Positions 32,028-48,792 of a DNA stretch of 61,148 nucleotides are shown piece by piece. Each line of letters begins with the position of its first letter. Within the stretch, counting starts at the first letter, position 1. The translations under genes and the position numbers were made by a program. The stretch lies in NCBI GenBank assembly GCA_902802795.1, contig CADCNI010000020.1, forward strand, positions 1-61,148, read 5' to 3'. The notes under the pieces are model-generated. The model was not told where the DNA came from, searched no databases, and worked only from the letters and a program-made list of their open reading frames with translations. Origin of the DNA: an uncultured Ruminococcus sp. Its GTDB lineage: Bacteria; Bacillota; Clostridia; Oscillospirales; Acutalibacteraceae.

Positions 32028-32074
32028 ACAGAGCAGGAAGGAAGGCGTGACAGGAATAAAACGGATTTTGTCTA

Positions 32075-32103: not shown

Positions 32104-32126
32104 AAAACCGAGAGGGGATGATACCC

Positions 32127-33050: not shown

Positions 33051-33068
33051 CAAAGGGGAGTGTTTCCG

Positions 33069-33719
33069 TTGGAAATCCGTGAATTACTGGCCGTTACCGA
33101 CCACACGCTGTTAAAGCCCGACGCGACGTGGGCACAGATCAGGACGCTTTGCGATGAGGGGGTGCGCTTCGGCACTGCTTCGGTGTGCCTTCCGCCGTCG
33201 TTTGTCAGGCAGGCGGCGGATTATCTGGACGGCAGGCTGCCGGTGTGTACCGTGATCGGCTTTCCGAACGGCTACGCCACCACCGCCGCAAAGGTCTTTG
33301 AAACACAGGACGCGGTGGCAAACGGGGCGGATGAAATCGACATGGTGATTGACGTTGGCTGGCTCAAAGAGCAGCGGTATGACGCACTGCTCAGCGAGAT
33401 CAGGGCGGTCAGGGAAGCGTGCGAAGGAAAAACTCTCAAAGTCATCGTCGAGACCTGTCTGCTGAGCGAGGCGGAAAAAATCAGAATGTGTGAGATCGTT
33501 TCCGAGTCGGGGGCGGATTTCATCAAGACCTCCACGGGCTTTTCCAAAGGGGGAGCCACCCCCGAAGATATCCGGCTCTTTGCCGCACACGTCGCGCCGC
33601 ATGTGAAAATCAAAGCGGCCGGCGGAATATCTTCCGTTGCCGACGCGCGGGCGCTGGTCGATAGCGGCGCGGACAGACTGGGTTCCAGCCGCATGGTGGC
33701 GCTGGCCGAGAAATCATGA
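33069..33719 (+). CDS. deoC: Deoxyribose-phosphate aldolase
   Basis: 216 residues from TTG 33069, with AAGGGGAG 8 bases upstream; a GTG at 33060 is too close to it. It cleaves deoxyribose 5-phosphate to acetaldehyde and glyceraldehyde 3-phosphate. The motifs are clear: DHTLLKP at the N-terminus, VCTVIGFPNG, EIDMVIDVGWL, the Schiff-base lysine in LKVIVETCLL, and FIKTSTGFSKGGAT and KAAGGISS. It belongs with deoB-cdd and deoD (46-48.6 kb) in deoxynucleoside breakdown. Confidence 0.96.
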   Translation: MEIRELLAVTDHTLLKPDATWAQIRTLCDEGVRFGTASVCLPPSFVRQAADYLDGRLPVCTVIGFPNGYATTAAKVFETQDAVANGADEIDMVIDVGWLKEQRYDALLSEIRAVREACEGKTLKVIVETCLLSEAEKIRMCEIVSESGADFIKTSTGFSKGGATPEDIRLFAAHVAPHVKIKAAGGISSVADARALVDSGADRLGSSRMVALAEKS

Positions 33720-33723
33720 TAAC

Positions 33724-33779
33724 AAAAAAATACCGTCCGGCTGCGGGATTATCCCATCACGCGGTCGGGCGGTATTTTT
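33724..33779. terminator. Bidirectional terminator between deoC and the serine hydrolase
   Basis: AAAAAAATACCG (33724-33735) with CGGTATTTTT (33770-33779) and further inner pairing. Confidence 0.8.
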
Positions 33780-33802
33780 GGTATGAGAAAAACGATAAAA
33801 AA

Positions 33803-35758
33803 TTACTTGTCGATCAGATCTTTATAGCACTGCTGGGTGATGGTCTGGCAGACCTTGTAGAAATGATAGTCGTCCACGGAACCGTAGGCGCCGCTGGTCA
33901 TGACTACCACGCCGCTTTTCTGCTGCTCGTCATAGCAGACGCTCGCGTAGACGCCGTAGGCATTGCCGCCGTGGTAATAAAGGTCGTGTCCGTCCACATA
34001 GGCGTTGGTCTTTTTGAAGCCGAGGCAGTAGCGGAACTGATCGTCGTGGAGGTATTCCTTTTCGACTTCCCTGACCGCCGCTTCGGACAGCACGCGGATG
34101 TTGCCGTACATGCCGTCATTGACGAAAATCGTCACCAGCTTGGCGTAATCCTTGGGGCTGATGAGCAGGCTTCCCTGCGCGAGAATGTAAGTTTCACCCG
34201 GAGCTCTGATCTGTCTGTCCTTGACGAGCACTGCGCGGGAGCGGGACACCTTGTCGATCTTATAGCATTCCGCGACGTTGGTTTTGTCTTGCAGGCTCTG
34301 TCCGCCGAAAGCAGCGTCCATTCCCAGCCGGTCAAAGAGCACCGAGTCGGTGAAGTAGATGTAGTGCATATTCGTGACCACTTCATCCAGCGAGCCGACG
34401 ATGCCGAAGCCGGAGTTACTGTAGGAGAATTCGGTGCCGGGCTTCTGGTCCTTGTAGCTTTTGAGGTCGATGACGAGGTCTTTCAGACGGGTGCCGGCGT
34501 TGCTGCCCGTGTAGATGATGTATTCGTCGTCGAGGGAGGAGGAGTGGTTGAGCAGCATGCGGGGGGTGATCTCCGATTGCGGGAAAAGGGGATTGCGGAA
34601 CTTGAAGCCGAAGTAATTCTCCACATTGCGGTCGAGGTCAATCCGGCCCGCGTCCACCAGCGTCATGGTGGAGAGGGTGGAGATGATTTTGGAGAGGGAA
34701 GCGGGGCGGAATTTCGTGTCGGCGTTGATTTTCTTCTTCTGCTGCCTGTTGGCGTAGCCGTAGGAATAGGTGTATTCCACCTTGCCGTCTTTGATGACCG
34801 CCACGCCCACGCCCATGGCGCTGTACTTCTGGCAGATGTTTTTGAGTTCCGTGGCGGTGTTGCCGGTCAGTTCTTCGGGATGATGGGGGTCGATCACCTT
34901 GGGTTCCTCGTGTCCCTCCACGTCCACATAATATTTGTCGATCCAGCCGAAGCAGTTTTTGAGGTATTCGATACGGTAGAAGTCGCCGCTTGTTTCCAGC
35001 ACCTCAAAGACCTGTCCTTTCATGACGGTATTCTGAATCTTCTTGGAAAAGTCGGGTTCGGAGCAGATGGTGCCGGTGGTGAATTTGACCGTGACGTTGA
35101 AGCCGCTCTCCGGTTCCTCCGCGCTCACCGTCTCCGCCTTGTCGGCGGCGTTGGTCTTGGGGTGAAGCCATTCTTTGATGATCGCCATGTAATCGGTGGG
35201 GGAGAAGCGGAATGTCAGAACGAGGCTGACGCACAAGCAGAGGACAATGCCGACGGTGCCGATGCCGCGGATGCGGCTGCGCCGATAATAATGCAGATAG
35301 CGCTGCCACCACGAGGAGGCCAGCCCCCCGACCACCGCGCCTATGCCGACAGGCTGATCGGGGGTCGGTCGCGTTTTTTCTCGTTCGTCGTCTATGGCGT
35401 TAAAATAATCTATGTCGTCATCGTCATCCCCGCTGACTTCCGCGCCGCGAAGATAGGCGTTGCGGCGGTAGTAGGAGGCGTAATCGCCGCGCTCTCCGCC
35501 GTCGTGAGAAGCGGAGACTCCTGCGCTGCTGTCGTAATACGCAGAATGCGCCGCGTTGCTGTCGTAAGGCTCGTAACGTCCCGGGGTGTGGTCGTAATAT
35601 TCGTAACGCTCCGTGTCATTATCGAAATCCGTGGGATATCGGCGGTATTCGGCGCGGGCGTTGTCCGCAGCATATCTCCGACCGCCTGAGCGCGAACCGC
35701 CGCGGCGGAATCTCCCCGAAGCGCCGCCGTTGTTGTCGTTGTTGTTATCCTGCCGCAT
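33803..35758 (-). CDS. Membrane-bound serine hydrolase (beta-lactamase/PBP4* family)
   Basis: 651 residues; ATG 35758 behind AAGGAGG. Residues 1-160 are a cytoplasmic, low-complexity tail rich in Tyr, Asp, Arg and Gly. One membrane helix lies at about 166-185. An SH3-like segment (about 222-282) precedes the serine hydrolase domain: SLSK (SxxK, S354-K357), YSNSGFG (YxN motif), and a C-terminal YYHGGNAYG in place of KTG. Class C-like D-Ala-D-Ala hydrolases and esterases share this plan. Likely action is on cell-wall peptides outside the membrane. The tyrosine-rich tail is unusual. Confidence 0.88.
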   Translation of the reverse strand: MRQDNNNDNNGGASGRFRRGGSRSGGRRYAADNARAEYRRYPTDFDNDTERYEYYDHTPGRYEPYDSNAAHSAYYDSSAGVSASHDGGERGDYASYYRRNAYLRGAEVSGDDDDDIDYFNAIDDEREKTRPTPDQPVGIGAVVGGLASSWWQRYLHYYRRSRIRGIGTVGIVLCLCVSLVLTFRFSPTDYMAIIKEWLHPKTNAADKAETVSAEEPESGFNVTVKFTTGTICSEPDFSKKIQNTVMKGQVFEVLETSGDFYRIEYLKNCFGWIDKYYVDVEGHEEPKVIDPHHPEELTGNTATELKNICQKYSAMGVGVAVIKDGKVEYTYSYGYANRQQKKKINADTKFRPASLSKIISTLSTMTLVDAGRIDLDRNVENYFGFKFRNPLFPQSEITPRMLLNHSSSLDDEYIIYTGSNAGTRLKDLVIDLKSYKDQKPGTEFSYSNSGFGIVGSLDEVVTNMHYIYFTDSVLFDRLGMDAAFGGQSLQDKTNVAECYKIDKVSRSRAVLVKDRQIRAPGETYILAQGSLLISPKDYAKLVTIFVNDGMYGNIRVLSEAAVREVEKEYLHDDQFRYCLGFKKTNAYVDGHDLYYHGGNAYGVYASVCYDEQQKSGVVVMTSGAYGSVDDYHFYKVCQTITQQCYKDLIDK

Positions 35759-35786
35759 AGACGGACACCTCCTTATTGATTATGAT

Positions 35787-35992
35787 AAATGAGAATTTAG
35801 TGGGGAGTGGGGAGTGGAGAGAAAAAGAAAAAAGAAGAAAAAGCGAAGCGCAACTAGCGAGCGTCTTTTTTCCAGGCGAGCGTGGGAGTCCAGGGGGGTA
35901 GGCCCTCCTGGACTCCCACGCTCGCATTCGCTCGCTAGTTAGGCGCTGCGCTATGCTTTTTTCTTTTTCTTTACCCCGCTAAATTCTCATTT
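35787..35992. mobile_element. MITE-like element with AAATGAGAATTTAG ends
   Basis: 206 bp; the left arm AAATGAGAATTTAG (35787-35800) is matched by 35979-35992. Inside is a long palindrome around GTCCAGGGGGGTAGGCCCTCC, flanked by CGAGCGTGGGA and TCCCACGCTCG, and the GCGAAGCGCAACTAGCGAGCG module in both orientations. The remaining 36000-36106 is AT-rich with no gene. Confidence 0.8.
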
Positions 35993-36106
35993 ACCTCATT
36001 ACTACCTCATTCGCCTGCACATGAAAATCATTATAACAAATTTGCGTGAAGAGTACAAGCCGCAAATTATGAAATTTTGGCTAACGGAAAATGACCAAAA
36101 ACAATC

Positions 36107-36158
36107 AAAACGCCGGACTGCGTTTCTCCGGCAAATGGGAAAGCAGTCCGGCGTTTTT
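36107..36158 (-). terminator. Terminator of htpG
   Basis: AAAACGCCGGACTGC (36107-36121) pairs with GCAGTCCGGCGTTTTT (36143-36158). On the minus strand the stem is followed by TTTTGATTG. Confidence 0.85.
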
Positions 36159-36186
36159 GTAAATCGCGGCCATTCGGAAATAAAGA

Positions 36187-38094
36187 TTATTGCGCGTCCG
36201 TGAGCAGAGAGCAGACCGCGTTGGCGTAAGCCACCGGGTCCTCAATGGCGATACCCTCGATGAGAGAGGCCTGCGCATAGAGAATATCCGTCAGCTTGCC
36301 CGCCTTTTCCTTGTCCTCGGCATAGGCCTTGGTCAGCGCGGCGAAGATGGGATGACTGGCGTTGATTTCGAGAACGCGGGTGGCCTTGACCTTTTCCTCG
36401 TTGCCCGGCATGGCGTTGAGCACCTTCTCCATTTCGAGCGAAATGCCGCCGTCGCTCGTCAGGCAGACGGGGTGGCTCTTGAGACGGCTGCTGAGGCGCA
36501 CTTCCTTGACGTTTTCGCCCAAGTGCTCCTTCATGAAGTCAAAGAGGCTCTTGTTGTCCTCGGCGGTTTTCTTGATTTCTTCCTTCTCGGCTTCGTCCTC
36601 CACGTCAAGCGCCGCGTCGGACACCGAACGGAATTCCTTTTCCTTGTAGTCGCGCATGGATTTCAGGGCAAATTCGTCGATCTCATCGGTGAGGTAGAGG
36701 ATTTCAAAGCCCTTGTCCTTGAGAAGTTCGGTCTGCGGCAGCATGTCGAGCTTGGCAGTGGATTCGCCGCAGGCGTAGTAGATGTATGGCTGGCTCTCCT
36801 TCATGCGGCCGACGTACTCGTCCAGCGTGACGGGCTTCTTCTCGGAGGAGGAATAGTACAGCAGCAGGTCTTGCAGCAGGTCTTTCTTCATGCCATAGGA
36901 GCTGTAGATGCCGAACTTGATTTGCAGACCGAAGTTTTTGAAGAAAGATTCATACTTCTCGCGGTCACCCCTCTGCATATTGAGGAGTTCGGACTTGATC
37001 TTCTTTTCTAGACTCGCCGCGATGGATTTGAGCTGGCGGTCGTGCTGGAGCATTTCGCGGCTGATGTTGAGCGACAGGTCGGGGGAGTCCACCAGACCCT
37101 TGACGAAGCTGAAATAATCGGGCAGCAGGTCGGCGCATTTCTCCATGATCATCACGCCGTTGCTGTAGAGCTGGAGTCCCTTTTCGTAGTCCTTGGAGTA
37201 GTAGTTGAAGGGCGTGCGGGAGGGAATGAACATCAGCGCGGTGTAGGTGGTCACACCCTCGACATTCTGATGAATGCAGCGGGCGGGGTCCTCAAAGTCG
37301 TTGAACTTTGCCTTGTAAAATTCCTCGTATTCCTTTTCGCCCAGCTCCGCCTTGGTCTTTTTCCAGACCGGCACCATGCTGTTGACGGTTTCGTTTTCGA
37401 TGGTGGTGGCGTATTCTTCGCTCTCGTCGTGTTCTTCGCCCTCCTCCCAGTCGCGGGACTTGGGCATGGGCATGACGATGGGGTAGCGGATGTAGTCGGA
37501 GTATTTCTTGATCAGATTGCGCAGCGTGTAGGTTTCGAGGTATTCGTCATAGTTTTCATCCTCGGTGTTGTCCTTGATGTAAAGGGTGATTTCCGTGCCG
37601 TTGTCGGCTTTTTCGGCTTCCTCGATGGTGTAGCCGTCTGCGCCGTCGGATTCCCAGCGGAAGGCCTTGTCGCTGCCGGCGGCCTTGGAGAGAACCACGA
37701 TCTTCTTGGCGACCATGAAGGCAGAGTAAAAGCCCACGCCGAACTGACCGATGATATCCACGTCGCTGTCGAGATTGTGCTCCTGCTTAAAGGCGAGAGA
37801 ACCGCTCTGGGCGATGGTGCCGAGGTTGTTTTCCAGTTCGTCAGGGGTCATGCCGATGCCCTTGTCGGTGACGGTGAGGGTGCGCGCCTCCTTGTCCGGC
37901 TCCACGGTGATGGTGAGGTCGTCGCGGCTCAGACCCGCGTTGCCCGCCTGCATGGCGTTGTAGTACAGCTTGTCGGTCGCGTCGCTGGCGTTGGAAATCA
38001 GTTCGCGCAGAAAGATTTCCTTGTGGGTATAGATCGAGTTGATCATCATATCAAGCAGACGCTTGGATTCGGCTTTGAATTGTTTCTTTTCCAT
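36187..38094 (-). CDS. htpG: Chaperone HtpG (Hsp90)
   Basis: 635 residues. The N-terminal GHKL ATPase is intact: [12 protein letters not shown] (catalytic Glu nearby in [12 protein letters not shown]), [23 protein letters not shown]. Middle and C-terminal dimer domains follow at normal length. It folds or holds client proteins under stress. The start ATG 38094 has AAAGGATG upstream. It has its own promoter and CIRCE site, so it should be under HrcA control. Confidence 0.97.
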
Positions 38095-38124
38095 AATGCA
38101 AGTTCATCCTTTCTTACGAAACAA

Positions 38125-38151
38125 TTAGCACTCGGAATGACTGAGTGCTAA
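38125..38151 (-). promoter_or_regulatory. CIRCE operator (HrcA site) of htpG
   Basis: Perfect TTAGCACTC (38125-38133), 9 bases, GAGTGCTAA (38143-38151), between the promoter and the htpG start. Confidence 0.97.
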
Positions 38152-38166
38152 TTGATGGTAATACAT

Positions 38167-38195
38167 ATGATATACCCTTTGGCAATGCTTGTCAA
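38167..38195 (-). promoter_or_regulatory. Sigma-A promoter of htpG
   Basis: On the minus strand: TTGACA (38195-38190), 17 bases, TATCAT (38172-38167). The transcript would start at the CIRCE element. Confidence 0.8.
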
Positions 38196-38298
38196 GAGGG
38201 CAAATGTGAACTTTTTTGCAAAGATGCAAAATCAGCGGAATTATTACCGTTTCTGCTTTACGCCGGACCCGTTCCGCGGACTGACACGCGAGGGCATA

Positions 38299-41200
38299 TT
38301 ATTTTCTGAGCATTTTCTTCATGCGGTTGCGGAAGGGAGTTTTTTCGCCGTGTTTATTGATTGCCGCACGGTAAAGCGCCTGGAAACGATCATCCTGCGC
38401 ATAGCCATTAAACGGCCGGGACAGGATAGCTTCCGGATCGACAGGCGCAAACATGGACCCGTTGAAATAATACTCCGCCTCACTGAGACACCGCATGGCG
38501 TTGTAAAACGCTGTCTTCGGATAGATCTTGGGGAGATTTTCGGCCGATGAAGGCTTACTGACGATAAACTGATTCTGTTGTATGTCATACTCTCTGACGC
38601 AGAAGAAATAAAGGGGGTTCTTATTCATATCGGGTGTTTTTTCGTTGGGCCAGCTGTAAACACAATTGGTTTTACCCACAAATACCCCGGCGACGTTCAT
38701 GATGACCATATTTCCCTGCACTTCTTTGAAATCTCCCGTCAGGAAACGGTCAAACAACTGCGGAAATTCTTTCTGACAGTCGATGCGGTCGGGCAAGGTG
38801 TCGTTGGACGTAAGGTGATGCTTTTTGGCGTACATCGCCTTTACCACATCGCCAAAGGGAATCACCCGCCGCAGGAAGGAATTCATATACAGTTCAAAAA
38901 GCATTTTCGGGCTGAGATGCGAGTACAGAATCGTTTTGTAATTCATTTCCTTCAATATCGCATTTTTAAGGCTGGCAACATCGTCGTTTTGTATTTTCAG
39001 CGTGTTACGACCAAAGGGGTCGTAAACCAAGAGGTTGCCCATGCCGTCCGTCCGCCGTCTGAGGGTGCGAAGCAGATCTATCAGCGCGTTCTGGTCGTTT
39101 CTCAGCGCGATCATGGCCTTAGTCTGTGCTATGACGAGCCGACGGGCTTCTTCCTGCGGAATATTCTCGATGAGATTGCAGTACATGCGTCCGGTTGACG
39201 CTTTCATGTCGATCCAGCAGGAGCACGCTCCCAGCTTAGCGATGGTTGTTTCGTTGAATTTGCCTGTTGCCGCTACGTTTTCCAACAAACTGACGTAACT
39301 GTCAAATTTCGCTTTTCGCGCGGGAAAAAACATATTGTCCTTCGTGGAATACATGTACGGGGTACAGATATTGTTATTGTTGGGAAAGGCAATGAGATAG
39401 TTTTTATCCTCATTCGGATCAAAGTTGTTCTGCAACGTAAAAGTGAGCTCTCTCTCGCCGCTGATAAGCGTGCTGTTTGCCCGGATGCTGTCGCTGAATG
39501 AATAGGCCTGTACGGACAGTTCCTTCCGGGCTGAATTGCCCGCTTTCGGGATAAAGACAGAAGGCCACACCCATTGCGTCATGTTTGTTTCATTCAGTTT
39601 ACGGAAGAGATAATTGTTTCCGTAGACTTTTACCCCTCTGTTTTTATTATCCTTCCACTCGAAAGCGCTGAGACTGACAGGGCGTGCGTAGAGAATCCCT
39701 TTTTCGTAGCTTTTGGGGACAAAGAATAACGACAAACCGCTTGCCGACTGATTATTGTTGAAGCCGATCAGATGGACGCCGGGCGTGTCTTCACAATTGA
39801 GCGCCACGCCGCCGTCCACACAGTGACCGCCGAAAATGACCTCCGCAAAAGGGGTAGCGGCTATGTCGGGGTAACATCCGGCTTTTTTCCAGATGAGCTC
39901 CATAAACTCGCAGAAAGAAAGGTTGATGTGGAGCAGCGTGTTGAGATAAAGCCGGATGACGTCGTTGACCGGATAAATATCCAGCAGGTTCCTGACGACG
40001 GTTTCCGCTTTTGAATGAAAAGAATCGAAATGCATGGATTGTGGCATAAGGTGGAACATGACGTGATGTTTGCCGTAGTCGTCGCCTACCAACGTCAAAA
40101 AAGGCATCACCTTGTACGGAGCGTCAGTCATCAGCCGGACCAACGCGTCGTTGACGTCCGGTTTAAGAAACTCGGGGGTCAGATGTTTCGGTTTGCTTTT
40201 CTCATTGATGTCCCATTCTTTCTCTTCGCTTTCCTGGTTTTCTTCATTGGCGAAGGAATCACCTGTATTATTGACGGAGTATTTTCCATTTCGCTCATTA
40301 CTGAGATAATTGAAAGTGTCAAAGGCTCTACAATCCAGGTCGGCAGGGGAATAAATGGCCGTCTGGATGAAAACGCAGCGCCGCATTTCCGGTTCCTTAC
40401 AGATATCCATGCGGTCGATATATTTCAACCACTGCTGAAATCCGGCTCGCCGCGCCTCCTGCTGATCACTGCGTTCCTTATCCGCCGTCAGCCGTCGGTT
40501 CATCTGGTTTTTCAGACACGCGACATAGCTGGCATGCACCATCCGGTATTTCATAAAGTAGAGCGCCCGGGGATTGTCGCTTTTGTTTTTCCTGATAACT
40601 TCCGCCAGTTTTTGGGTGTCGATGCCGAGCAGATCCAGCAAATCCTGTTTCTCAAAAAGACGGCATAAATCCATTACTGTGATGTATTCGTCGTAACGAT
40701 ACAGACAGTTTTCGATATAATCCTTTACGCTTTTACCGTATTCCGTCAGTTGATTCCTTTTTTCCACCAGCACGGTATCTTTGACGATATGGTCGAGATA
40801 GTTGGCGGAGACGGCTCTGCACAGTTCCCTGACACTGTGAGCGTTTTCGGCCGAAGGTTGCTTTCTTTTAATGAGTGCGTCAAACAGCAGAAAAAACAGT
40901 TTTTCGACGGAGACGGTAAAATAATAATTCTCCGGATTTAAAAGAGCGTTCGATCTGTTTTTAATCAGGTCGTCCAGCAGTTCCGGCAGTTTGTCCGTTT
41001 TTCGGCTGGAGATGATGATGACTCTCGCCTTCAGCAGCCGGATACCCGACTTGTTTTTTTTATAGGAATCTATGTCTTTTATAACGAATGAATCGAGGAT
41101 TTTGCCGACTGCTTCCATCGTTTGTCTGTCCGCCTTTCCTTTGCGCGCGCACCAGTAGTAGAGATAAGCGGTTTCAACGATATGACCGTTTTCAGACAGG

Positions 41201-41334
41201 GCTTTCGCGCCTTCGATCACTTGAAGATTCTTTTCCCATTCGGGAAAAAAATTATCAAGTATGTCCCTGCTGATATCCTGATTCTGATAAAGGCGAAAAA
41301 CCGTACTCTTCAATTCTTGCGGACTGTAGCTCAA
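38299..41334 (-). CDS. 1011-residue protein of unknown family, partner of the HEPN-NACHT protein
   Basis: 1011 residues. TTG 41334 follows AGGTGA by 7 bases and starts 14 bases after the NACHT gene stop, so the two are co-transcribed and probably translated together. I do not recognise a domain. Residues 1-330 look alpha-helical with Leu-rich segments. Residues about 345-385 form an acidic linker (NEENQESEEKEW). The middle (about 390-700) has beta-rich segments such as LIGFNNNQSASGLSLFFVP. The C-terminal 300 residues are again helical. No Walker, nuclease or protease motif is evident and there is no signal peptide. The DNA is visibly lower in GC than its surroundings, suggesting transfer. It could be a target sensor or scaffold for the NTPase. 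Confidence 0.85.
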   Translation of the reverse strand: MSYSPQELKSTVFRLYQNQDISRDILDNFFPEWEKNLQVIEGAKALSENGHIVETAYLYYWCARKGKADRQTMEAVGKILDSFVIKDIDSYKKNKSGIRLLKARVIIISSRKTDKLPELLDDLIKNRSNALLNPENYYFTVSVEKLFFLLFDALIKRKQPSAENAHSVRELCRAVSANYLDHIVKDTVLVEKRNQLTEYGKSVKDYIENCLYRYDEYITVMDLCRLFEKQDLLDLLGIDTQKLAEVIRKNKSDNPRALYFMKYRMVHASYVACLKNQMNRRLTADKERSDQQEARRAGFQQWLKYIDRMDICKEPEMRRCVFIQTAIYSPADLDCRAFDTFNYLSNERNGKYSVNNTGDSFANEENQESEEKEWDINEKSKPKHLTPEFLKPDVNDALVRLMTDAPYKVMPFLTLVGDDYGKHHVMFHLMPQSMHFDSFHSKAETVVRNLLDIYPVNDVIRLYLNTLLHINLSFCEFMELIWKKAGCYPDIAATPFAEVIFGGHCVDGGVALNCEDTPGVHLIGFNNNQSASGLSLFFVPKSYEKGILYARPVSLSAFEWKDNKNRGVKVYGNNYLFRKLNETNMTQWVWPSVFIPKAGNSARKELSVQAYSFSDSIRANSTLISGERELTFTLQNNFDPNEDKNYLIAFPNNNNICTPYMYSTKDNMFFPARKAKFDSYVSLLENVAATGKFNETTIAKLGACSCWIDMKASTGRMYCNLIENIPQEEARRLVIAQTKAMIALRNDQNALIDLLRTLRRRTDGMGNLLVYDPFGRNTLKIQNDDVASLKNAILKEMNYKTILYSHLSPKMLFELYMNSFLRRVIPFGDVVKAMYAKKHHLTSNDTLPDRIDCQKEFPQLFDRFLTGDFKEVQGNMVIMNVAGVFVGKTNCVYSWPNEKTPDMNKNPLYFFCVREYDIQQNQFIVSKPSSAENLPKIYPKTAFYNAMRCLSEAEYYFNGSMFAPVDPEAILSRPFNGYAQDDRFQALYRAAINKHGEKTPFRNRMKKMLRK

Positions 41335-41348
41335 TAAAAGTCACCTAC

Positions 41349-43277
41349 TTAATTGTTATATTTTGCGATGATTTTGCTGAACTCTTCGTTAACCAGATTA
41401 ACCGTTCCGTAATTCCTCATTTCAGTTTTCAGGTCTTCGCTGTAAAGAGAATAGGTGCTGGTTTTATCGTCCAGCCCCGCTTCCGCGAGAACCATGATGC
41501 CGAGTTCCTTAAGCAGCCTTACGCAATCCGGGGCATACGTACCGGAGTAACCGCATGCTGGAAGAATTTCGGCAAAGAGCAATTGCAGCTTGGAAAGATA
41601 ATTGGCGTTATTTTTCAGCATGGCAAGCGCAAACATGCAGTATTCCGCCTGATCGGTCAAATCGTTGTTTTTCTCCCTGCATTCTCTCTCCAGAATTTTC
41701 ATGCAGTGGGTGTATTCGGGAAACTTCGGAACGCCGTCTTTTACGGTGGTGCCTTCGATGATATGCGTCAGTTTCAGTGGCGTACAGTTATTGAAATAAC
41801 GATTATTATTCTGGAGTTCATTGAGCAAAATCGGTCTGATTTTGGCGTTGGCGTTTTTGTTGATCAGCGCCTTATAGTCCTCGACAGTGTAACTGACTCT
41901 CAGACGGAACGCAATATCGGGAGCGGTATTTTTATTCTCAAGGCGGTTGGATACGATGAGAATGAGGTGAGGGTACTTTTTCAGTTGTTCTATTTGTTCC
42001 TTGACCGCTGTTTTGATTGCACTTTTACGGATCTCGTCATATCCGTCCAGCATGAGGATAAAGCGTCCGTTTCTCAGAAGAAGATCAGACCGACTGGCGT
42101 CCACGCCAAGCGCTTGGCAAAAAGCGTCGGTGACAGGCGACTTCGTTTCCTCCAGATTTTTCAGCTCGATAAACACAGGCAGATAGGGGGGCTTTTTCAG
42201 ACAAACGGCGTACTTTTTTTTCTTTTCCTCCGCAAAAGCGTGGCGCTCCTGACGATTCATATTGTTGAGAGGATTTCCCTTCCGCTTGGCGGCGCTGCCG
42301 ATGGCGTTACCGTCAAGGTCTCTGAGTTCGTTTCTCATGGCCGTTTTTTGCTGTAGGAAATTCAGCGTTCCGTCTGCAAAGTTGCAGGTCAGCTTTTTCA
42401 GAAGGAAGGTCTTTCCGGTGCCGGCGTTGCCCTCCAGCATGAACTGACGGATGTCCGGATGAATGACCTCCTTCGGGGTGAGCATTTTCAGCTTGATGGT
42501 GCGATTCAGCATGTCGCTGCCCTTCCAGACCAGGTTGACATACGTGCCGACTTTCTCTTCATACTCTTCATACTCTTTTTGAATCTTTTGGCAGTAATCT
42601 TTCACATCGAATGATTTCTCTGTGACATACCACTGGTACTTCTCGTTAATTACTGTTTTATACTTATTGGCGATGCAGAGAAAACCCGCAAGGGTGCGGA
42701 ACGTGTAAGTATCTATCTGAGTGCGGTAAGAATCTTTCTTGAGTTTGGGAGGTAGATGCACGCCACCATTTCTGTAAAGATATACCCACCAGTAATAACG
42801 CTCTTCCGGGGACTTCTTTTTTTCTTTCAGTTCCTTGTTGTATTCATCTTCACTGGACAGCGAAGTTTCCGGATCATCTATCAGTTTCAACGCGTATTTA
42901 TACAAATCTTCGTCCGACCATTCCTTCTTATATGTGCCATCGGGATGTTTGGGCGTGTCATTGCACTGTAAAGAAAAAGGATCAATAAGACCATAGAGAT
43001 GTTTTAAGAAAATCTCTATTTGGCTATTCAGGTCAATCAGTGCGGTATAGTAATGCCTTGATGACTCATACTCGATTGTGTCTTTATATAACCTGGCACA
43101 CGTCAAGACTTTATCAGCCGTACCGATATACCGATTAGGGATATAGCTTGGGATTGCCAGAAGCTTTTCAAAGGTTGCGATCATTGCATCGGCATTTGGG
43201 AAGGTATTTTTAACTCTGTTTTTGATCCAGTCGCGGCTTTCCTTGTCGAGAATAACGGGTTGTTTGGTAGATTTCAA
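41349..43277 (-). CDS. NACHT-family STAND NTPase with a probable N-terminal HEPN domain
   Basis: 642 residues from TTG 43277, which has AAGGAG 10 bases upstream. The frame is open to 43472 but that part is a MITE, so I chose the inner start. The NACHT domain has Walker A EGNAGTGKTFLLKKL (about 280-294) and Walker B FILMLDGYDEIRKS (about 404-418), the NACHT-type DGxDE form, then LILIVSNRLENKN as sensor. The N-terminal 260 residues are helical and include YLYRNGGVHLPP, an RNxxxH motif (R169, N170, H174) typical of HEPN ribonucleases, preceded by a suitable helix (HYYTALIDLNSQIEIFLKHL). The C-terminal 190 residues are helical, perhaps a sensor. It is followed by the 1011-residue gene. Bacterial NACHT proteins are known phage-defence effectors. 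The HEPN call is inference. Confidence 0.85.
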   Translation of the reverse strand: MKSTKQPVILDKESRDWIKNRVKNTFPNADAMIATFEKLLAIPSYIPNRYIGTADKVLTCARLYKDTIEYESSRHYYTALIDLNSQIEIFLKHLYGLIDPFSLQCNDTPKHPDGTYKKEWSDEDLYKYALKLIDDPETSLSSEDEYNKELKEKKKSPEERYYWWVYLYRNGGVHLPPKLKKDSYRTQIDTYTFRTLAGFLCIANKYKTVINEKYQWYVTEKSFDVKDYCQKIQKEYEEYEEKVGTYVNLVWKGSDMLNRTIKLKMLTPKEVIHPDIRQFMLEGNAGTGKTFLLKKLTCNFADGTLNFLQQKTAMRNELRDLDGNAIGSAAKRKGNPLNNMNRQERHAFAEEKKKKYAVCLKKPPYLPVFIELKNLEETKSPVTDAFCQALGVDASRSDLLLRNGRFILMLDGYDEIRKSAIKTAVKEQIEQLKKYPHLILIVSNRLENKNTAPDIAFRLRVSYTVEDYKALINKNANAKIRPILLNELQNNNRYFNNCTPLKLTHIIEGTTVKDGVPKFPEYTHCMKILERECREKNNDLTDQAEYCMFALAMLKNNANYLSKLQLLFAEILPACGYSGTYAPDCVRLLKELGIMVLAEAGLDDKTSTYSLYSEDLKTEMRNYGTVNLVNEEFSKIIAKYNN

Positions 43278-43294
43278 TAAAAAAACACTCCTTC

Positions 43295-43454
43295 TATAGC
43301 AATCCAAATAATCAGGGAGACAAAAGGAGGCGATGATGGTGAGTGCAGGGCAAGGCGGAGGACGACGGTGGGCTGGCGACCACCTAGGACGACAACGCAG
43401 CCATGTGCTCACCAGCGCGCCGAACTTGTCTTTTTGTTTGTTTGGATTGCTATA
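43295..43454. mobile_element. MITE (TAGCAATCC ends, TA target) in the leader of the NACHT gene
   Basis: Element proper 43297-43452 with ends TAGCAATCCAAA/TTTGGATTGCTA, flanked by TA on both sides. It is nearly identical, in reverse orientation, to the copy at 45932-46108, which has one extra 17-bp internal duplication. The right-to-left NACHT transcript would run through it. Confidence 0.9.
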
Positions 43455-43470
43455 GTAAAAATATGATATC

Positions 43471-43499
43471 ATTATATCGTATCATTTCATATAAGTAAA
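43471..43499 (-). promoter_or_regulatory. Probable promoter of the NACHT operon
   Basis: On the minus strand: TTTACT (43499-43494), 17 bases, TATAAT (43476-43471). It lies beyond the MITE, about 190 bases before the TTG start. A dyad (ATGATAC...GATATCAT) overlaps the -10 box and could bind a regulator. Confidence 0.55.
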
Positions 43500-43532
43500 G
43501 AGAAAAAATATGAATTTTTATTAATAAAATAC

Positions 43533-43571
43533 AAAAAGCGGAGACAATTTCTTAGAAAACTGTCTCTGCTT
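43533..43571 (-). terminator. Terminator of the DAHP synthase gene
   Basis: AAGCGGAGACA with TGTCTCTGCTT; on the minus strand the stem is followed by TTTTTGTATTTT. Confidence 0.75.
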
Positions 43572-43600
43572 ATGGTTATGCGTAAAAAGCAACGGTATCT

Positions 43601-44623
43601 TTACAGCGTGTCGGCGATATCCAGCACCAGACGTTCGCTCTTGTCCCAGCCGAGGCAGGGGTCGGTGATGGATTTGCCGTAAACGCCGCCGTCCACCGAC
43701 TGATTGCCGTCCTCGATGTAGCTTTCGATCATCAGCCCCTTGACCATGCGGGCAATGTCGCCGTTGTGATTGCGGGAATGCAGCACCTCCTTGCAGATGC
43801 GGATCTGTTCGATGTACTGCTTGTTGGAGTTGCTGTGGTTCACGTCCACGATGACCGCCGGATTGAGAAGGCCGCGCGCGGCATACATGTCATGCAGCAG
43901 AATCAGGTCCTCGTAGTGGTAATTCTGCATATTGCGGCCGTGCTTGTTGACCGAACCGCGCAGGATGGCGTGGGCGAGGGGATTGCCTTCCGTTTCGACC
44001 TCCCAGCCGCGGTAAAGGAAGGTGTGGCTGAGCTGCGCGGCCTTGATGGAGTTGAGCATGACGCTCAGATCGCCGCTGGTGGGGTTCTTCATGCCAACGG
44101 GAACGGCGATGCCGCTGGAAGTCAGGCGGTGCTGCTGGTTCTCCACCGAACGCGCGCCCACCGCGACATACGACAGCAGGTCGCTGAGGTAGCGGTAGTT
44201 TTCGGGATAGAGCATTTCGTCCGCGCAGACAAATCCCGTTTCCTCGATGGCGCGGGTGTGCAGACGGCGGATGGCGATCAGACCTTCGAGAAGATCGGGC
44301 TTTTTGGTGGGATCGGGCTGGGTGGCCATGCCCTTGTATCCCTCGCCCGTGGTGCGGGGCTTGTTGGTGTAGATACGGGGGATGATGATGATTTTGTCCT
44401 TGACCTTTTCCTGCAATCCCGCGAGGCGGCCGATGTAATCCATGACGGAGGTTTCGTTGTCCGCCGAGCAGGGGCCGATGATGAGCAGGAATTTATCGCT
44501 CTGGCCGGTGAATACGTCGGCGATCATCGCGTCACGCGCCGCTTTGATTTCGGCGCAGCGCTGCGAAATGGGGAACTGTTCCTTGATATCCTGCGGAATG
44601 GGGAGTTTTCTGATGAAATTCAT
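43601..44623 (-). CDS. aroG: 3-deoxy-7-phosphoheptulonate (DAHP) synthase, AroG type
   Basis: 340 residues. First step of aromatic amino-acid synthesis: PEP plus erythrose 4-phosphate. Motifs: LLIIGPCSADNE (about 47-58), IPRIYTNKPRTTGEGYKGM with PEP-binding Arg and Lys, ADEMLYPEN, GARSVENQQHR, VGMKNPTSGD, and IVDVNHSNSNK for metal binding. The length and the N-terminal extension fit the type I alpha enzymes that are feedback-controlled by Phe or Tyr. ATG 44623 has GAGAGGAAA upstream. The 5' leader has a striking four-copy repeat. Confidence 0.96.
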   Translation of the reverse strand: MNFIRKLPIPQDIKEQFPISQRCAEIKAARDAMIADVFTGQSDKFLLIIGPCSADNETSVMDYIGRLAGLQEKVKDKIIIIPRIYTNKPRTTGEGYKGMATQPDPTKKPDLLEGLIAIRRLHTRAIEETGFVCADEMLYPENYRYLSDLLSYVAVGARSVENQQHRLTSSGIAVPVGMKNPTSGDLSVMLNSIKAAQLSHTFLYRGWEVETEGNPLAHAILRGSVNKHGRNMQNYHYEDLILLHDMYAARGLLNPAVIVDVNHSNSNKQYIEQIRICKEVLHSRNHNGDIARMVKGLMIESYIEDGNQSVDGGVYGKSITDPCLGWDKSERLVLDIADTL

Positions 44624-44650
44624 AAATGCTGTTTCCTCTCAAAAATAATA

Positions 44651-44722
44651 GCTGATTTTTTAGCATCTGCTAAGGATTTAGCGAACGCTAAGAATTTAGC
44701 GGATGCTAAGAATTTAGCAGTT
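44651..44722 (-). repeat. Four 18-bp tandem repeats in the aroG leader
   Basis: Units 44651-44668, 44669-44686, 44687-44704 and 44705-44722, each a form of GCTAAGAATTTAGCGGAT. Each can form a small hairpin (GCTAA/TTAGC). They are followed upstream by the hairpin AAAGCG-TAA-CGCTTT. All lie between promoter and ribosome site. Confidence 0.85.
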
Positions 44723-44753
44723 TAAAGCGTAACGCTTTTATGTGCTGAATAAC

Positions 44754-44782
44754 AGTATATCCTATCTCTCTTGGAATTGCAA
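44754..44782 (-). promoter_or_regulatory. Sigma-A promoter of aroG
   Basis: On the minus strand: TTGCAA (44782-44777), 17 bases, TATACT (44759-44754). The leader would be about 124 bases. Confidence 0.7.
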
Positions 44783-44790
44783 GTGTTTTT

Positions 44791-45744
44791 TTATGAAATA
44801 GCGTTTGCTTGGCAGAATTTTCCCACGATTTCCTCGATGAAGTCGGGGCGCGCGATTTTGCTTCGCCAATCGGCGGGAATGCCCTCGTAGCCGTAAAGCA
44901 GTCCTGCGAGAGCGCCCGCCACGCAGGCGGCGGTGTCGGTGTCGCCCCCGAAATTGACCGCGCACAGAATACAGTCGCGGTAGCTGTGGGTATTCATCAG
45001 GCTCCACAGGGCGCATTCCAGCGTGCTGACGACATAACCGGAACTGTGGATTTCGTCGCGTGACAGGGAGAAGAAATTCTCTCCCAGAACGCGCCCGTAT
45101 TCGTCCCGTTCCGACGAATAGGCGGGATCCGCGTAGAAGATTCCCGCTCTTTGCAGTCCCTCGGTCACGGCGGCTTTGGCGGGATTCTCAATGAGCGCCA
45201 GCGCAACGCAGGTGAAGATGCCGCAGCCGATCTGCGAACGGAGATGGGCGTGCGTGAGCCGGGAAAGCGCGTGGCTGAGGAGTACCGCTTCTTCTGGGGT
45301 CAGTCCGTGGGCGGCGGCATAGAGCGCGGCGGGAAGGATGCGCATAAGCGACCCGTTGCCGTTGCTGTGTTCGTCGTCTAACCCGCAATCCTCAATATCC
45401 CCGAAGCGGGCATAATTCATCAGAGCAAAAGATGTGGTGCCGCCGATGTCAAAGCAGTCGTGATAGGGTGTGTATTCTCCCTTTGTTTGCCACGAGACAA
45501 AGGCTTTCATAATCGCGTGAAAATCCCTTTTCTCGTCGAGGTTGTCAAGCGTGCAGAGAATCATGGACGTATCGTCCGACCATGTGCCGACAGGCTGACC
45601 GTAGGTACCGTGTCCGACCATATCGACGGCGGGGGACAGCATCATCCGGTCGGGGCTGTGAAATTCGTAGGGAACGCCCACCGCGTCGCCGATCGCCGCT
45701 CCGAACACCGCGCCGCGCACGGTTTGCAATGTGATGTGTTTCAT
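44791..45744 (-). CDS. ADP-ribosylglycohydrolase family protein
   Basis: 317 residues. The DraG/ARH3-type fold is shown by GAAIGDAVGVPYEF (about 14-27), TWSDDTSM (metal ligands, about 54-61), EHSNGNGSLMRI, and NFGGDTDTAACVAGALAG (second metal site, about 267-284). It removes ADP-ribose from proteins or nucleic acids. ATG 45744 has AAAGGAT upstream. No ADP-ribosyltransferase is visible nearby, so it may act on endogenous or phage-borne modification. It lies between two inverted MITE copies together with aroG. Confidence 0.92.
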   Translation of the reverse strand: MKHITLQTVRGAVFGAAIGDAVGVPYEFHSPDRMMLSPAVDMVGHGTYGQPVGTWSDDTSMILCTLDNLDEKRDFHAIMKAFVSWQTKGEYTPYHDCFDIGGTTSFALMNYARFGDIEDCGLDDEHSNGNGSLMRILPAALYAAAHGLTPEEAVLLSHALSRLTHAHLRSQIGCGIFTCVALALIENPAKAAVTEGLQRAGIFYADPAYSSERDEYGRVLGENFFSLSRDEIHSSGYVVSTLECALWSLMNTHSYRDCILCAVNFGGDTDTAACVAGALAGLLYGYEGIPADWRSKIARPDFIEEIVGKFCQANAIS

Positions 45745-45807
45745 ATTTTTTGTTATCCTTTCTTTTTGTGCAACGGATAGCCAACAGCTAATGGCTAACC
45801 ACTGACC

Positions 45808-46114
45808 ACAACTTAGGGAAAATAACTCCCTCCGTCACGCCTACGGCGTGCCACCTCCCTCAAAGAGGGAGGCAATATTCGGCTCCCTCTTTGAGGGGGC
45901 TGTCAGCGTAGCTGACTGGGGGGAGTGCGCTTATAGCAATCCAAACAAACAAAAAGACAAGTTCGGCGCGCTGGTGAGCACATGGCTGCGTTGTCGTCCT
46001 AGGTGGGCGCCAGCCCACCGTCGTCCTCAGCCCACCGTCGTCCTCCGCCTTGCCCTGCACTCACCATCATCGCCTCCTTTTGTCTCCCTGATTATTTGGA
46101 TTGCTATAAGTTGT
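45808..46114. repeat. Palindromic CTCCCTC repeat interrupted by a MITE
   Basis: Left end ACAACTTA (45808-45815), right end TAAGTTGT (46107-46114), the same ends as the element at 13703-13829. The MITE 45932-46108 is inserted at the TA of the right end. Confidence 0.8.
45932..46108. mobile_element. MITE (TAGCAATCC ends, TA target), second copy
   Basis: 177 bp including the TA duplications. It is the reverse complement of 43295-43454 apart from about one base change and a 17-bp tandem duplication (CAGCCCACCGTCGTCCT twice, near 46010-46043). The TA target duplication is confirmed by the interrupted host repeat. Confidence 0.92.
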
Positions 46115-46184
46115 TGATAGTGAATGGCTAACCGCTAACCGCTAACGGCTAACAGCTAACGGCTAACAGCTAACGGCTAACGGC
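46113..46184. repeat. Heptamer repeat array (reverse GTTAGCN)
   Basis: About nine units GCTAACG/GCTAACC/GCTAACA; the last supplies the TAG stop of the deoB-cdd gene on the minus strand. Confidence 0.8.
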
Positions 46185-47749
46185 TACAGCGTAAATCCCA
46201 GCGGGAGCAGGTCGGAGAGGGTATATTCCTCCCATCCGTCGGCTTTGGCGAGAATAATGGAAAAATCCGGGGCGCAAAATTCCTGCATGACCTGACGGCA
46301 GACGCCGCAGGGCGGGCAGATGCCGGAGATCACGCCGTCCTTGCCGCCCGCAATGGCGATCATGACAAAGCCGCGTTCTCCCTCGCTGACTGCCTTGGCA
46401 AAAGCGGTGCGTTCGGCGCAGAGGGAGGGGGAAAAGGCGCCGTTTTCGACGTTGCAGCCCGTGTAGATCTTTCCGCTTTTGCCGAGAAGCGCCGCGCCGA
46501 CGTGAAAGCCGGAATAAGGGCAATAGGCACGCAAAGCGGCCTGTCTGGCGAGCTGCGCCAGATGGACGCGGATATCGCTGATTTCCCCAAAGAAGCTGCG
46601 ACCGGCGCAGGGAAAATCCACGCCGAAGACGTCCGTTACGGTGGCGGCGATGTCCGCGAAGGTGTCCCGCGTGCCGAGATTGACGGGAAGCGCCGACTTT
46701 CCGTACACCAGCAGGGGAATATATTCGCGCGTGTGGTCGGTGCTGTTGTCGGCGGGGTCACAGCCGTGGTCGGCAGTGATCATCAGCAGGTCATTCTCCC
46801 GCAGCTTGGGCAGAAAGCCGCCCAGCCATCTGTCAAAGGCGGAGAGCGCCGCCGCGTAGCCCTCCACGTCCTGACGGTGGCCGTAGAGCATATCGAAATC
46901 CACCAGATTGACGTAGCACAGCCCATGAAAATCCTTTTCCGCGATCTTCGCCGTGACGCGCATGCCCTCGTCGTTGCCGGAGGTGGCATACTTCTGTGTG
47001 ATGCCGCGTCCGGCAAACAAATCCTTGATTTTGCCGACCGAAATCACATCATATCCCGCGCCGGACAGCGCGTCGAGCATGGTGTCCTGCGGCGGCGGCA
47101 GGGAAAAATCGTGGCGGCGGGAGGTGCGGGTGAAGTGACCCGGCTGCCCGGTAAAGGGACGGGCGATGACGCGTCCCACGCCGTGCTCCCCGACAAGGAG
47201 GTTCCGCGCGGCTTCGCAGTAAGCGTAGAGCGTCTCAACGGGAACGATCTCCTCATGCGCGGCGATCTGAAAGACGCTGTCCGCCGAAGTGTAGACGATC
47301 AGCTTGCCGGTTTTCATGTGTTTCTCGCCGTAGTCGGCAATGACCTGTGTGCCGGAATAAGGCAGATTGCAGAGAACACCGCGCCCGGTGCGGCGGGAAA
47401 ATTCGTCGAGAATCTCCTGCGGAAACCCGTCCGGATAGGTGGGGAGGGGACGGGGAGAGACAACGCCCGCCATTTCCCAGTGACCCACGGTGGAATCCTT
47501 GCCGCGGGACAATTCGCCCAGACGGCAGACCGCCGCTCCGGGCGAATCGGCGGTGCCGAGGAATCCCAGCCCGTCGATATTCCCGATGCCGAGCCGCCGC
47601 AGATTCGGAAGAAACAGCCTGTCGGAGTCCGCGACGCTGCGCAAGGTATGCGCCCCCGCGTCACCGAAATCCGCCGCGTCAGGCAATGCGCCCGCGCCCA
47701 CGCTGTCCAGCACGATCAGAAACACACGGCGAATGTCTGGCAGATGCAT
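46184..47749 (-). CDS. deoB-cdd: Phosphopentomutase-cytidine deaminase fusion
   Basis: 521 residues. Residues 1-395 are phosphopentomutase: FLIVLDSVGAGALPDA (metal Asp), GKDSTVGHWEMAG with the phospho-Thr, SADSVFQIAAHE, LVDFDMLYGH, MITADHGCDP, DHTREYIPLLVY. Residues about 396-521 are a cytidine deaminase: CPYSGFHVGAALL, CNVENGAFSPSLCAERTA (zinc Cys and catalytic Glu) and PPCGVCRQVMQEF (two zinc Cys). No stop or ribosome site separates them, so it is a real fusion in the sequence as given. It couples cytidine deamination to ribose 1-phosphate isomerisation. deoD lies directly upstream and deoC at 33 kb. Confidence 0.94.
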   Translation of the reverse strand: MHLPDIRRVFLIVLDSVGAGALPDAADFGDAGAHTLRSVADSDRLFLPNLRRLGIGNIDGLGFLGTADSPGAAVCRLGELSRGKDSTVGHWEMAGVVSPRPLPTYPDGFPQEILDEFSRRTGRGVLCNLPYSGTQVIADYGEKHMKTGKLIVYTSADSVFQIAAHEEIVPVETLYAYCEAARNLLVGEHGVGRVIARPFTGQPGHFTRTSRRHDFSLPPPQDTMLDALSGAGYDVISVGKIKDLFAGRGITQKYATSGNDEGMRVTAKIAEKDFHGLCYVNLVDFDMLYGHRQDVEGYAAALSAFDRWLGGFLPKLRENDLLMITADHGCDPADNSTDHTREYIPLLVYGKSALPVNLGTRDTFADIAATVTDVFGVDFPCAGRSFFGEISDIRVHLAQLARQAALRAYCPYSGFHVGAALLGKSGKIYTGCNVENGAFSPSLCAERTAFAKAVSEGERGFVMIAIAGGKDGVISGICPPCGVCRQVMQEFCAPDFSIILAKADGWEEYTLSDLLPLGFTL

Positions 47750-47769
47750 GATACAAAACCTCCTTGAAA

Positions 47770-47817
47770 TAATGTGAAGTGTGAAATGTGAAGTGTGAAA
47801 TGTGAAGTGTGAAATGA
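47770..47817. repeat. Heptamer repeat array (GTGAAGT / GTGAAAT)
   Basis: About seven units upstream of the deoB-cdd ribosome site, on the side of deoD. Confidence 0.75.
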
Positions 47818-47821
47818 GGCA

Positions 47822-47916
47822 TAAAAATGGAGGAATAACAAAAAAGAAAGAAAAAGCGAAGCGTAACTAGCGAGCGTCTTTTTTCTTTTTTATTTTTCTC
47901 CGCTAAATTTTCATTT
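47822..47916. repeat. Partial MITE-like element overlapping the deoD stop
   Basis: Purine tract, AAGCGAAGCGTAACTAGCGAGCG, and the right end CTAAATTTTCATTT (47903-47916). The deoD stop codon (TGA on the minus strand) lies in this end sequence. The left arm is missing. Confidence 0.65.
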
Positions 47917-48639
47917 GCTTCCCACTCGAAGCGCCGTTTCGAGGGCAATTTCCATCATGGTGGTGAAGGTGGTCTGGCGTTCCTCGGCGGTGGTTTCCTC
48001 TCCTGTGAGGATGTGATCGGAGACGGTGAAAATGCCGAGGGCGCGTTTGCCGCAGCGCGCCGCGTTCATATACAGCGCGGCGGCTTCCATCTCGATGCAG
48101 AGCACGCCCATTTTACTCCACTGCGCGGTGGCGGTGGGGTCGTCGCAATAAAAGGTGTCGGAGGAAAGGCAGCTTCCGACGTGATAGGCCGTGCCGAGGT
48201 GCTCCGCGCAGTCGATGGCGGTCTTCATCAGGGTATAATCGGCGATCGGCGCGAAAGTGCCGGGGAGACGGTACTGGGAAGCGTAAGCGGAGTTGGTGCA
48301 GGCGCTCATGGCGAATACGACGTCGCGCACATGCACCTTTTCATTGATCGCGCCCGCCGTGCCGACGCGGATGATGTTTTCCACGCCGAAGAAGTGGTAA
48401 AGCTCATAGCTGTAGATGCCGATGGAGGGCATACCCATGCCGGAAGCCATCACAGAAACGCGCTGACCGTTGTAGGTTCCCGTGTAGCCCTGAATGCCGC
48501 GCACGTTGTTGACCAGCACCGCGTCGGTCAGATAGGTTTCCGCGATGAATTTCGAGCGGAGCGGGTCGCCGGGCATCAGCACGGTCGGCGCGAAATCGCC
48601 GGGGTTCGCATGGATGTGGGGGGTAGGGGTGTTTGACAT
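47911..48639 (-). CDS. deoD: Purine-nucleoside phosphorylase, DeoD type
   Basis: 242 residues from ATG 48639, with AAGGAG 8 bases upstream; the frame is open 12 codons further but without a ribosome site. It cleaves purine (deoxy)nucleosides with phosphate. Hexameric PNP motifs: ANPGDFAPTVLMPGDPLRSK, ASGMGMPSIGIYSYEL (GMG phosphate loop), RVGTAGA, IEMEAAALY and VSDH with the catalytic Asp. The last codons GSK and the stop are read in the start of a repeat element. The gene pair with deoB-cdd gives ribose 1-phosphate to ribose 5-phosphate conversion. Confidence 0.95.
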   Translation of the reverse strand: MSNTPTPHIHANPGDFAPTVLMPGDPLRSKFIAETYLTDAVLVNNVRGIQGYTGTYNGQRVSVMASGMGMPSIGIYSYELYHFFGVENIIRVGTAGAINEKVHVRDVVFAMSACTNSAYASQYRLPGTFAPIADYTLMKTAIDCAEHLGTAYHVGSCLSSDTFYCDDPTATAQWSKMGVLCIEMEAAALYMNAARCGKRALGIFTVSDHILTGEETTAEERQTTFTTMMEIALETALRVGSK

Positions 48640-48683
48640 AATACAACTCCTTTTGAAATGAAAATGAAACAGCATGAATATCG

Positions 48684-48740
48684 GAAAAAAACAAACAACC
48701 GCATTTGCATGTCGAACGGTTCATCCATAGCAAATGCGGT
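48684..48740 (-). terminator. Terminator of the pyrophosphatase gene
   Basis: ACCGCATTTGC (48698-48708) with GCAAATGCGGT (48730-48740); on the minus strand it is followed by TTGTTTGTTTTTTT. Confidence 0.8.
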
Positions 48741-48792
48741 GTTGTATTATCCTCTGATTTTCAGTTACCGCATCGGAAACCGCGCGGAATCA

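Follow-up and report, generated by a model that had tools for sequence, protein, structure and literature searches.

The stretch analysed here (the window) comprises 61,148 nucleotides of contig CADCNI010000020.1 from an uncultured Ruminococcus sp. (assembly GCA_902802795.1), and between its aroG and htpG genes lie two genes that encode a NACHT-type NTPase carrying an HEPN-like motif and a partner protein of 1011 residues, a pair we discuss as a possible defence operon. Both genes are on the minus strand and the reading direction runs from aroG to htpG; that these two genes flank the pair, as an earlier note on this DNA had stated, is borne out by Pfam, which assigns the flanking open reading frames (ORFs) to DAHP synthetase and HSP90, respectively. 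The NACHT gene (41349..43277, ORF calls and Pfam) encodes 642 residues and the partner gene (38299..41334) 1011 residues, and 14 bases separate the end of the NACHT ORF at 41349 from the partner's start. The TTG starts proposed earlier for both genes are plausible and both reading frames are intact. The two ORFs and the 14-base gap given in that note are confirmed, but of its span 38299-43499 the upper limit is corrected, as the NACHT gene begins at 43277 and not at 43499. Since the likely start TTG 43277 follows a GAAGGAG recognised by eye as resembling a ribosome-binding site (43294-43288, minus strand), and the sequence read in frame from there up to 43472 traverses a miniature inverted-repeat transposable element (MITE), we consider the 707-residue NACHT frame of the ORF list an artefact.

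The 642-residue protein is a NACHT-type NTPase, as had been read from its motifs. Pfam NACHT (PF05729) matches it at 27.3 bits, just above the curated cutoff of 26.7, with Walker A (GNAGTGKTF) at residue 283 and Walker B (LMLDGYDEI, with DGYDE) at residue 408. The acidic Walker B of NACHT/STAND NTPases follows the pattern hhhhDGxDE; the profile match, Walker A and the acidic Walker B of this class are all present. The NACHT core spans approximately residues 278-450 (41928..42446, minus strand), two PHROG families of unknown function match within it (residues 358-449 and 364-446), and beyond it the C-terminal part extends for about 190 residues that have no Pfam match. Among 18 genus genomes, ten of which are below 90% completeness or above 5% contamination, the protein's own genome was the sole match. 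In 391 class genomes (E <= 0.001) four genomes besides its own matched, all within residues 360-467. Plasmid and phage searches at E <= 1 gave 29 plasmid and 2 phage records, which among the matches listed cover residues 323-504 only, and nothing was confirmed in viral contigs for the protein or for its N-terminal part.

We regard the N-terminal region of this protein (residues 60-215; 42633..43100, minus strand) as a candidate HEPN domain at the level of motifs. According to the available text of a survey of HEPN proteins, the most conserved feature is Rx4-6H, typically with a polar residue after the arginine, at the end of helix 3, and an additional acidic residue is often found within Ex3[KR] (PMC3710099). 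The sole Rx4-6H in the 642 residues is RNGGVH at residue 169 (R169NGGVH174), an Rx4H with a polar N after the R, and upstream of it EIFLK at residue 88 (E88xxxK) fits Ex3[KR], a short pattern that is weak alone. RN...H turned up in 3.0% of cases when the whole NACHT protein was shuffled and in 0.5% when shuffling was confined to residues 1-270; for the looser R[NDH]x3-5H the whole-protein figure was 16%. In a single-sequence AlphaFold model a helix of residues 157-170 reaches RNGGVH; the mean predicted local distance difference test (pLDDT) of that model, 36.6, is too low to judge the four-helix HEPN fold either way. The HEPN assignment made earlier thus stands as far as the RNxxxH motif, the ExxxK in an earlier predicted helix and the position at a helix end are concerned, but is not matched by any HEPN profile in Pfam. 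HEPN families are very divergent, and an HEPN fold may therefore be present despite the missing Pfam match; as the motif frequencies in shuffles range from 0.5 to 16%, a Pfam HEPN match is absent and the model is too poor, we use the term candidate only.

The partner, described earlier as lying 14 bases downstream with no recognisable domain, retains that description, as it stays below every family cutoff (best E 0.084 in Pfam, 0.016 in NCBIfam and 0.1 in PHROGs), and family searches with Pfam, NCBIfam, PHROGs and PADLOC reveal no enzyme domain in it. Foldseek with a model of its C-terminal 287 residues returned nothing at E <= 0.001, the model (pLDDT 47.4) being too weak to be informative. 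By eye the beta part of the protein had resembled an S1-type oligonucleotide-binding (OB) fold, a reading that received no support from an S1 profile, from Pfam with one piece or from PDB profile searches. A profile of four Escherichia coli S1 repeats matched neither protein, the partner included, even at E 1000; this profile is narrow, scoring S1's own repeats 1-2 at just 4.6 and 7.7 bits, and the partner may for that reason have a remote OB fold all the same.

One distant relative of the partner was recognised, a 946-residue protein from another family of the class (genome G698, L026:8301-11141, minus strand), which came to light when the threshold was loosened to E <= 0.5 for the search of 391 class genomes, the match itself having E 0.0069 (for one genome). 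By eye the two proteins share a module in which a helical core of the type YLNSYLRxVLxFGxxLK precedes a beta-rich stretch; of this module the relative has three copies (around residues 343, 605 and 841), preceded by an N-terminal part of about 300 residues, and the partner two (around 465 and 818). In the partner, module 1 covers approximately residues 393-660 with a core helix at 446-486 (39355..40158, minus strand) and is weak alone (independent E-value, i-E, 0.17), and module 2 covers approximately residues 727-940 with its core at 790-849 (38515..39156, minus strand), delineated by the match to the relative, shuffles and a repeat profile. BLASTP aligns the two proteins at E 1e-5. Module 2 of the partner scores 89 against module 2 of the relative, the best of 500 shuffles reaching 61, and the comparisons of relative modules 1 and 2, of relative modules 2 and 3, and of partner module 1 with relative module 3 likewise exceed all 500 shuffles, while the scores of the remaining cross-module comparisons were reached by 1 to 10 of 500. 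A profile built from the relative's repeats only placed the partner at the top among 2358 frames (E 3.1e-10; the two matching stretches have i-E 2.4e-6 and 0.17), the runner-up being a chance frame at E 0.0053. Since likeness to module 2 was what singled out the relative among 391 genomes, the independent support comes from the second stretch and the shared layout. A result that counts against homology through a shared module is that the partner's own two modules show no likeness to each other above shuffles, 243 of 500 of which reach their score. On balance these comparisons make it very probable that the partner and the relative are homologous, and the partner probably has tandem alpha-beta modules in common with it.

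Further members of the family were sought in overlapping samples of 200 family, 295 order, 398 phylum and 391 class genomes. The partner matched only itself in its own genome, in the family genomes and in the order genomes. Two of the 398 phylum genomes matched, one being its own and the other a stop-riddled locus (L008), antisense to CRISPR-like ORFs by eye, which we rejected. At E <= 0.5 the class genomes gave 16 matches: the partner itself, one accepted as the relative described above (L012) and 14 that were not accepted, six of which we inspected (L013, L018, L021, L022, L024 and L025) and took by eye for unrelated ORFs such as a sensor kinase, an isoleucyl-tRNA synthetase and a chemoreceptor. 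The sole locus from a scan of genome contigs with the partner (L002) was a chance match inside an efflux-pump ORF. The relative found only itself in 32 genomes of its family, and so did a two-row profile in 33 genomes of its order. A module profile run on 219 phylum genomes at E <= 0.1 matched 14, 13 of these being new. Four of the new matches (L029 with L043, L030, L032 and L034) carry an SKxxILELYLNS-like stretch, in our view the glycosyltransferase motif of penicillin-binding proteins. At L031 the match lies in a short frame that runs antisense to EF-P-like genes, and the others, inspected in part, are weaker, several having stops or lying in short frames. The partner family is thus divergent enough for these searches to have yielded a single accepted relative, and that at a loosened threshold only; sequence-based defence catalogues would miss it.

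The gene pair is best explained as an acquired island, a conclusion supported by comparison of the site among congeners. A search with aroG matched 15 of the 18 genus genomes, the own genome included, and in four of the 14 others (G855, G859, G845 and G856) htpG comes next to aroG. Its place is taken by an aquaporin-like ORF in nine genomes and by a sugar-isomerase-like ORF in the remaining one, the last two assignments being made by eye (loci L046-L059); given this variation among congeners, the spot evidently rearranges. Neither island gene was found near aroG in these 14 (1.5 kb examined, less at contig ends). In G855, the closest congener by aroG (95% DNA identity; 421 residues of htpG were compared and are 99% identical), aroG and htpG are about 230 bases apart, and the portion of this interval next to htpG can be aligned at 78% with the window, starting near 38238. 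The difference of approximately 5.3 kb between about 38240 and 43600, which we take as the approximate extent of the island, was either gained here or lost elsewhere, and since both genes are rare we favour gain. The lower GC content noted earlier was confirmed, with 45.2% and 47.6% for the island genes versus 55.2% for the rest of the window. Their third-position GC content (GC3) is 56-60%, compared with more than 0.70 in 13 of 16 other selected genes of the window; the other three of these have GC3 of 0.56-0.63 and codon-usage distances of 0.122-0.163, larger than those of the island genes (0.113 and 0.121), so that the composition of the island is atypical yet not unique. Among the island ORFs of at least 80 residues, none further resembles an integrase or transposase by eye.

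Additional features surround the pair. A promoter of its own, as formerly claimed, finds a counterpart in TTTACT-17-TATAAT (43471..43499, minus strand), which matches the consensus at 10 of 12 positions, but is a consensus match only, and such sites (11 found in the region versus 6.8 +/- 2.7 expected) are not clearly over chance. A terminator-like hairpin after aroG (43541..43566, minus strand) is also a consensus match only, 10 terminator-like sites being found in the region versus 7.1 +/- 2.4 expected. No Rfam family reaches its gathering score within 30000-50000. The two island genes are probably co-transcribed. In the 5' leader of the NACHT gene, between the promoter-like site and the GAAGGAG, lies the MITE with terminal inverted repeats, 156 bp long (43297-43452) and flanked by TA on each side (43295..43454), a second copy of this TA-flanked family being located in the window at 45930-46110. 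The 2.8-Mb genome holds at least 40 matches to it, scored out of 141 candidates. Both ends were located by script in 24 of 30 copies, and all 24 have TAGCAATCC at the beginning, its complement or near-complement at the end, and a TA on either side. In the leader RNA the MITE would form a strong hairpin; the predicted fold has -70.1 kcal/mol (z -6.2) and pairing covers most of the GAAGGAG, and on this prediction the MITE may damp expression of the NACHT operon.

Other parts of the window hold observations in their own right. An inverted repeat, TTAGCACTC-N9-GAGTGCTAA, a CIRCE-type operator by its motif, precedes htpG at 38125-38151, similar inverted repeats occur in the aroG-htpG intervals of four congeners, and this suggests that htpG is under HrcA control. 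A link of the island to htpG was considered and found unsupported, htpG having its own promoter-like site and the CIRCE-like operator. Short repeats of the type GCTAACGGCTAAC lie at 46123-46186, and similar TTAGCTG repeats are present in the sister species' empty site. Next to them, at 46184-47749, a single frame of 521 residues joins a Metalloenzyme-superfamily domain (residues 8-378) to a cytidine deaminase domain (397-496) and is apparently a phosphopentomutase-cytidine deaminase (deoB-cdd) fusion. A transposase gene of the PD-(D/E)XK nuclease family (PDDEXK_2, E 3e-51) with low GC3 is found at 32118-33050, and a 1215-residue protein at 2730-6377 has several AAA stretches, an nSTAND3 match and partial PADLOC matches to IetA (the best, E 3.3e-12) and TRIP13.

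The gene layout, the NACHT domain, the Rx4H motif and the presence or absence of the pair at this site are observed directly, and the module family is probable; RNase activity, complex formation, sensing, an antiviral purpose and co-transcription are inferred. We tentatively propose, at somewhat less than even confidence, that the pair is a horizontally acquired, probably co-transcribed defence operon in which an HEPN-NACHT effector-switch is served by a sensor or scaffold in trans. The 642-residue protein would be an effector-switch related to NLR proteins, whose HEPN-like N-terminal domain would act as an RNase once the NACHT domain binds ATP and oligomerises; the partner would provide sensing or scaffolding in trans, detect a signal of infection and trigger assembly, and RNA cleavage would then halt growth or phage production. 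With its roughly 190 residues the C-terminal part seems small for a sensor. On the plan of the bNACHT proteins this would leave room for a sensor in trans, a role that the partner with its repeated modules could fill, presumably sensing while the NTPase cuts RNA, as suggested earlier. We count in favour the NACHT match above cutoff, the single Rx4-6H motif with Ex3[KR] upstream, the published HEPN-STAND proteins and the antiphage bNACHT proteins discussed below, the gene order, the 14-base gap, the joint low GC and the site that is empty in four congeners, the closest among them. The partner's relative, moreover, is located some 1.3 kb away from a type III restriction-modification (RM) pair (PADLOC: methyltransferase E 8.7e-179, restriction enzyme E 5.3e-196). 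A defence role is plausible.

Several results weigh against this proposal. Pfam finds no HEPN family in the whole NACHT protein or in its N-terminal part alone, and the AlphaFold model offers no usable HEPN fold. PADLOC gives no match for the partner, and the NACHT protein is matched only weakly, at best with E 0.0003 (17.4 bits) in the surroundings of Walker A; no model of the antiphage systems in PADLOC-DB clearly matches both components. Five other proteins of the window were scanned as well: four gave no match, and the 1215-residue AAA protein, which lies 32 kb from the pair, gave partial ones only. As single sequences the partner and its relative reach a probability of 20.7% (E 0.0011) in hhalign, so that their homology is weak by this measure. 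Relatives of the partner were lacking in viral contigs (nothing confirmed for the partner, the relative or their two-row alignment), in plasmids (nothing for the partner, the island DNA or the relative) and in phages (nothing for the partner or the relative). In the 20 kb that surround the relative, a Pfam search of the RM pair and nine further ORFs detects no NACHT and no HEPN domain, and the search with the NACHT protein had no match in G698, presumably one of the 391 class genomes. Co-occurrence of both genes elsewhere was thus not found, the sole relative of the partner having no NACHT neighbour, and the pairing rests on one locus.

The relative, standing near RM genes with no NACHT neighbour, further implies that the partner family may act without NACHT, and this is in accordance with a rather unlikely alternative, namely that the N-terminal region is some other helical adaptor and that the NACHT protein serves as switch or sensor for the partner, which would be the effector or an effector platform. 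The missing Pfam HEPN match and the occurrence of the loose pattern in 16% of shuffles point the same way; yet the precise Rx4H with N after R, its position at a predicted helix end (in a low-confidence model) and the ExxxK upstream speak for HEPN, and the family searches gave the partner no enzyme domain. It is unlikely, in our estimate, that the partner founds a new defence family whose tandem alpha-beta modules would detect a signal of infection and switch on adjacent effectors, here in trans an HEPN-NACHT RNase with no sensor of its own, and in one other genome perhaps something connected with type III restriction; if so, the pair would represent a bacterial NLR divided between two proteins, one the sensor and the other the RNase switch.

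The same occurrence of the relative apart from any NACHT gene would be expected had the two genes arrived together by chance with unrelated roles, and the leader fold of -70 kcal/mol (z -6.2) over most of the ribosome-binding site would suit an operon silenced by its MITE. Two intact frames, 14 bases apart and of similar composition, argue against both, and we hold this explanation to be improbable. Improbable, too, is a selfish island of the addiction or toxin-antitoxin type with no dedicated antiviral role, in which HEPN-NACHT would be toxic and the partner would restrain it. Two adjacent genes with an RNase-like motif would fit, and HEPN toxins with antitoxin partners are known from the available text of two sources (PMC3710099; PMC4621449), but 1011 residues would be large for an antitoxin, an NTPase switch would suggest a triggered response, plasmid searches with the partner and with the island DNA gave nothing, and the 29 plasmid records matching the NACHT protein cover, among the matches listed, residues 323-504 only.

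A literature search by titles and abstracts, which left most subscription papers outside its reach, found no description of the pair; the bacterial HEPN-STAND combination is already published, whereas the partner family seems undescribed. Validated systems with HEPN domains, and others with NACHT domains, are listed in the available text on DefensePredictor (PMC13092281), and one of these might correspond to the pair. The partner's 946-residue relative probably has the same tandem alpha-beta module, but differs in carrying three modules rather than two, in having no NACHT neighbour and in its proximity to type III RM genes. In a two-STAND system, as far as its available text goes, one STAND protein is inactive and fused to an HEPN or GT4 effector (PMC8195603). 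The pair described here resembles it in the HEPN effector, here a candidate, the STAND NTPase and the two-protein arrangement, but its NTPase retains the Walker motifs and its partner shows no STAND domain. Bacterial proteins combining an N-terminal HEPN with STAND NTPase modules are covered by the 2013 survey, some of them, in the portion of text available, carrying C-terminal cold-shock-like OB folds (PMC3710099). These share with the NACHT protein an HEPN-type motif ahead of a STAND-class NTPase, unlike the present pair with its separate partner, in which the narrow S1 profile recognised no OB domain. In the available text on bNACHT proteins, these are antiphage proteins with a C-terminal sensing part, of which bNACHT25 and bNACHT32 have an N-terminal nuclease whose activity is required for defence, the effector of bNACHT25 being a PD-(D/E)XK DNase (PMC12169576). 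Like them, the 642-residue protein has a central NACHT domain with Walker A and a DGxDE Walker B and an N-terminal domain in the effector position; unlike them, it has an HEPN-like effector candidate, no large C-terminal sensor in cis, and a 1011-residue partner gene. If our proposal holds, the pair would be a bacterial NLR-like switch with a separate sensor protein of a new family, and would add an HEPN effector candidate to NACHT defence proteins, for which the effector in the available text of PMC12169576 is a DNase.

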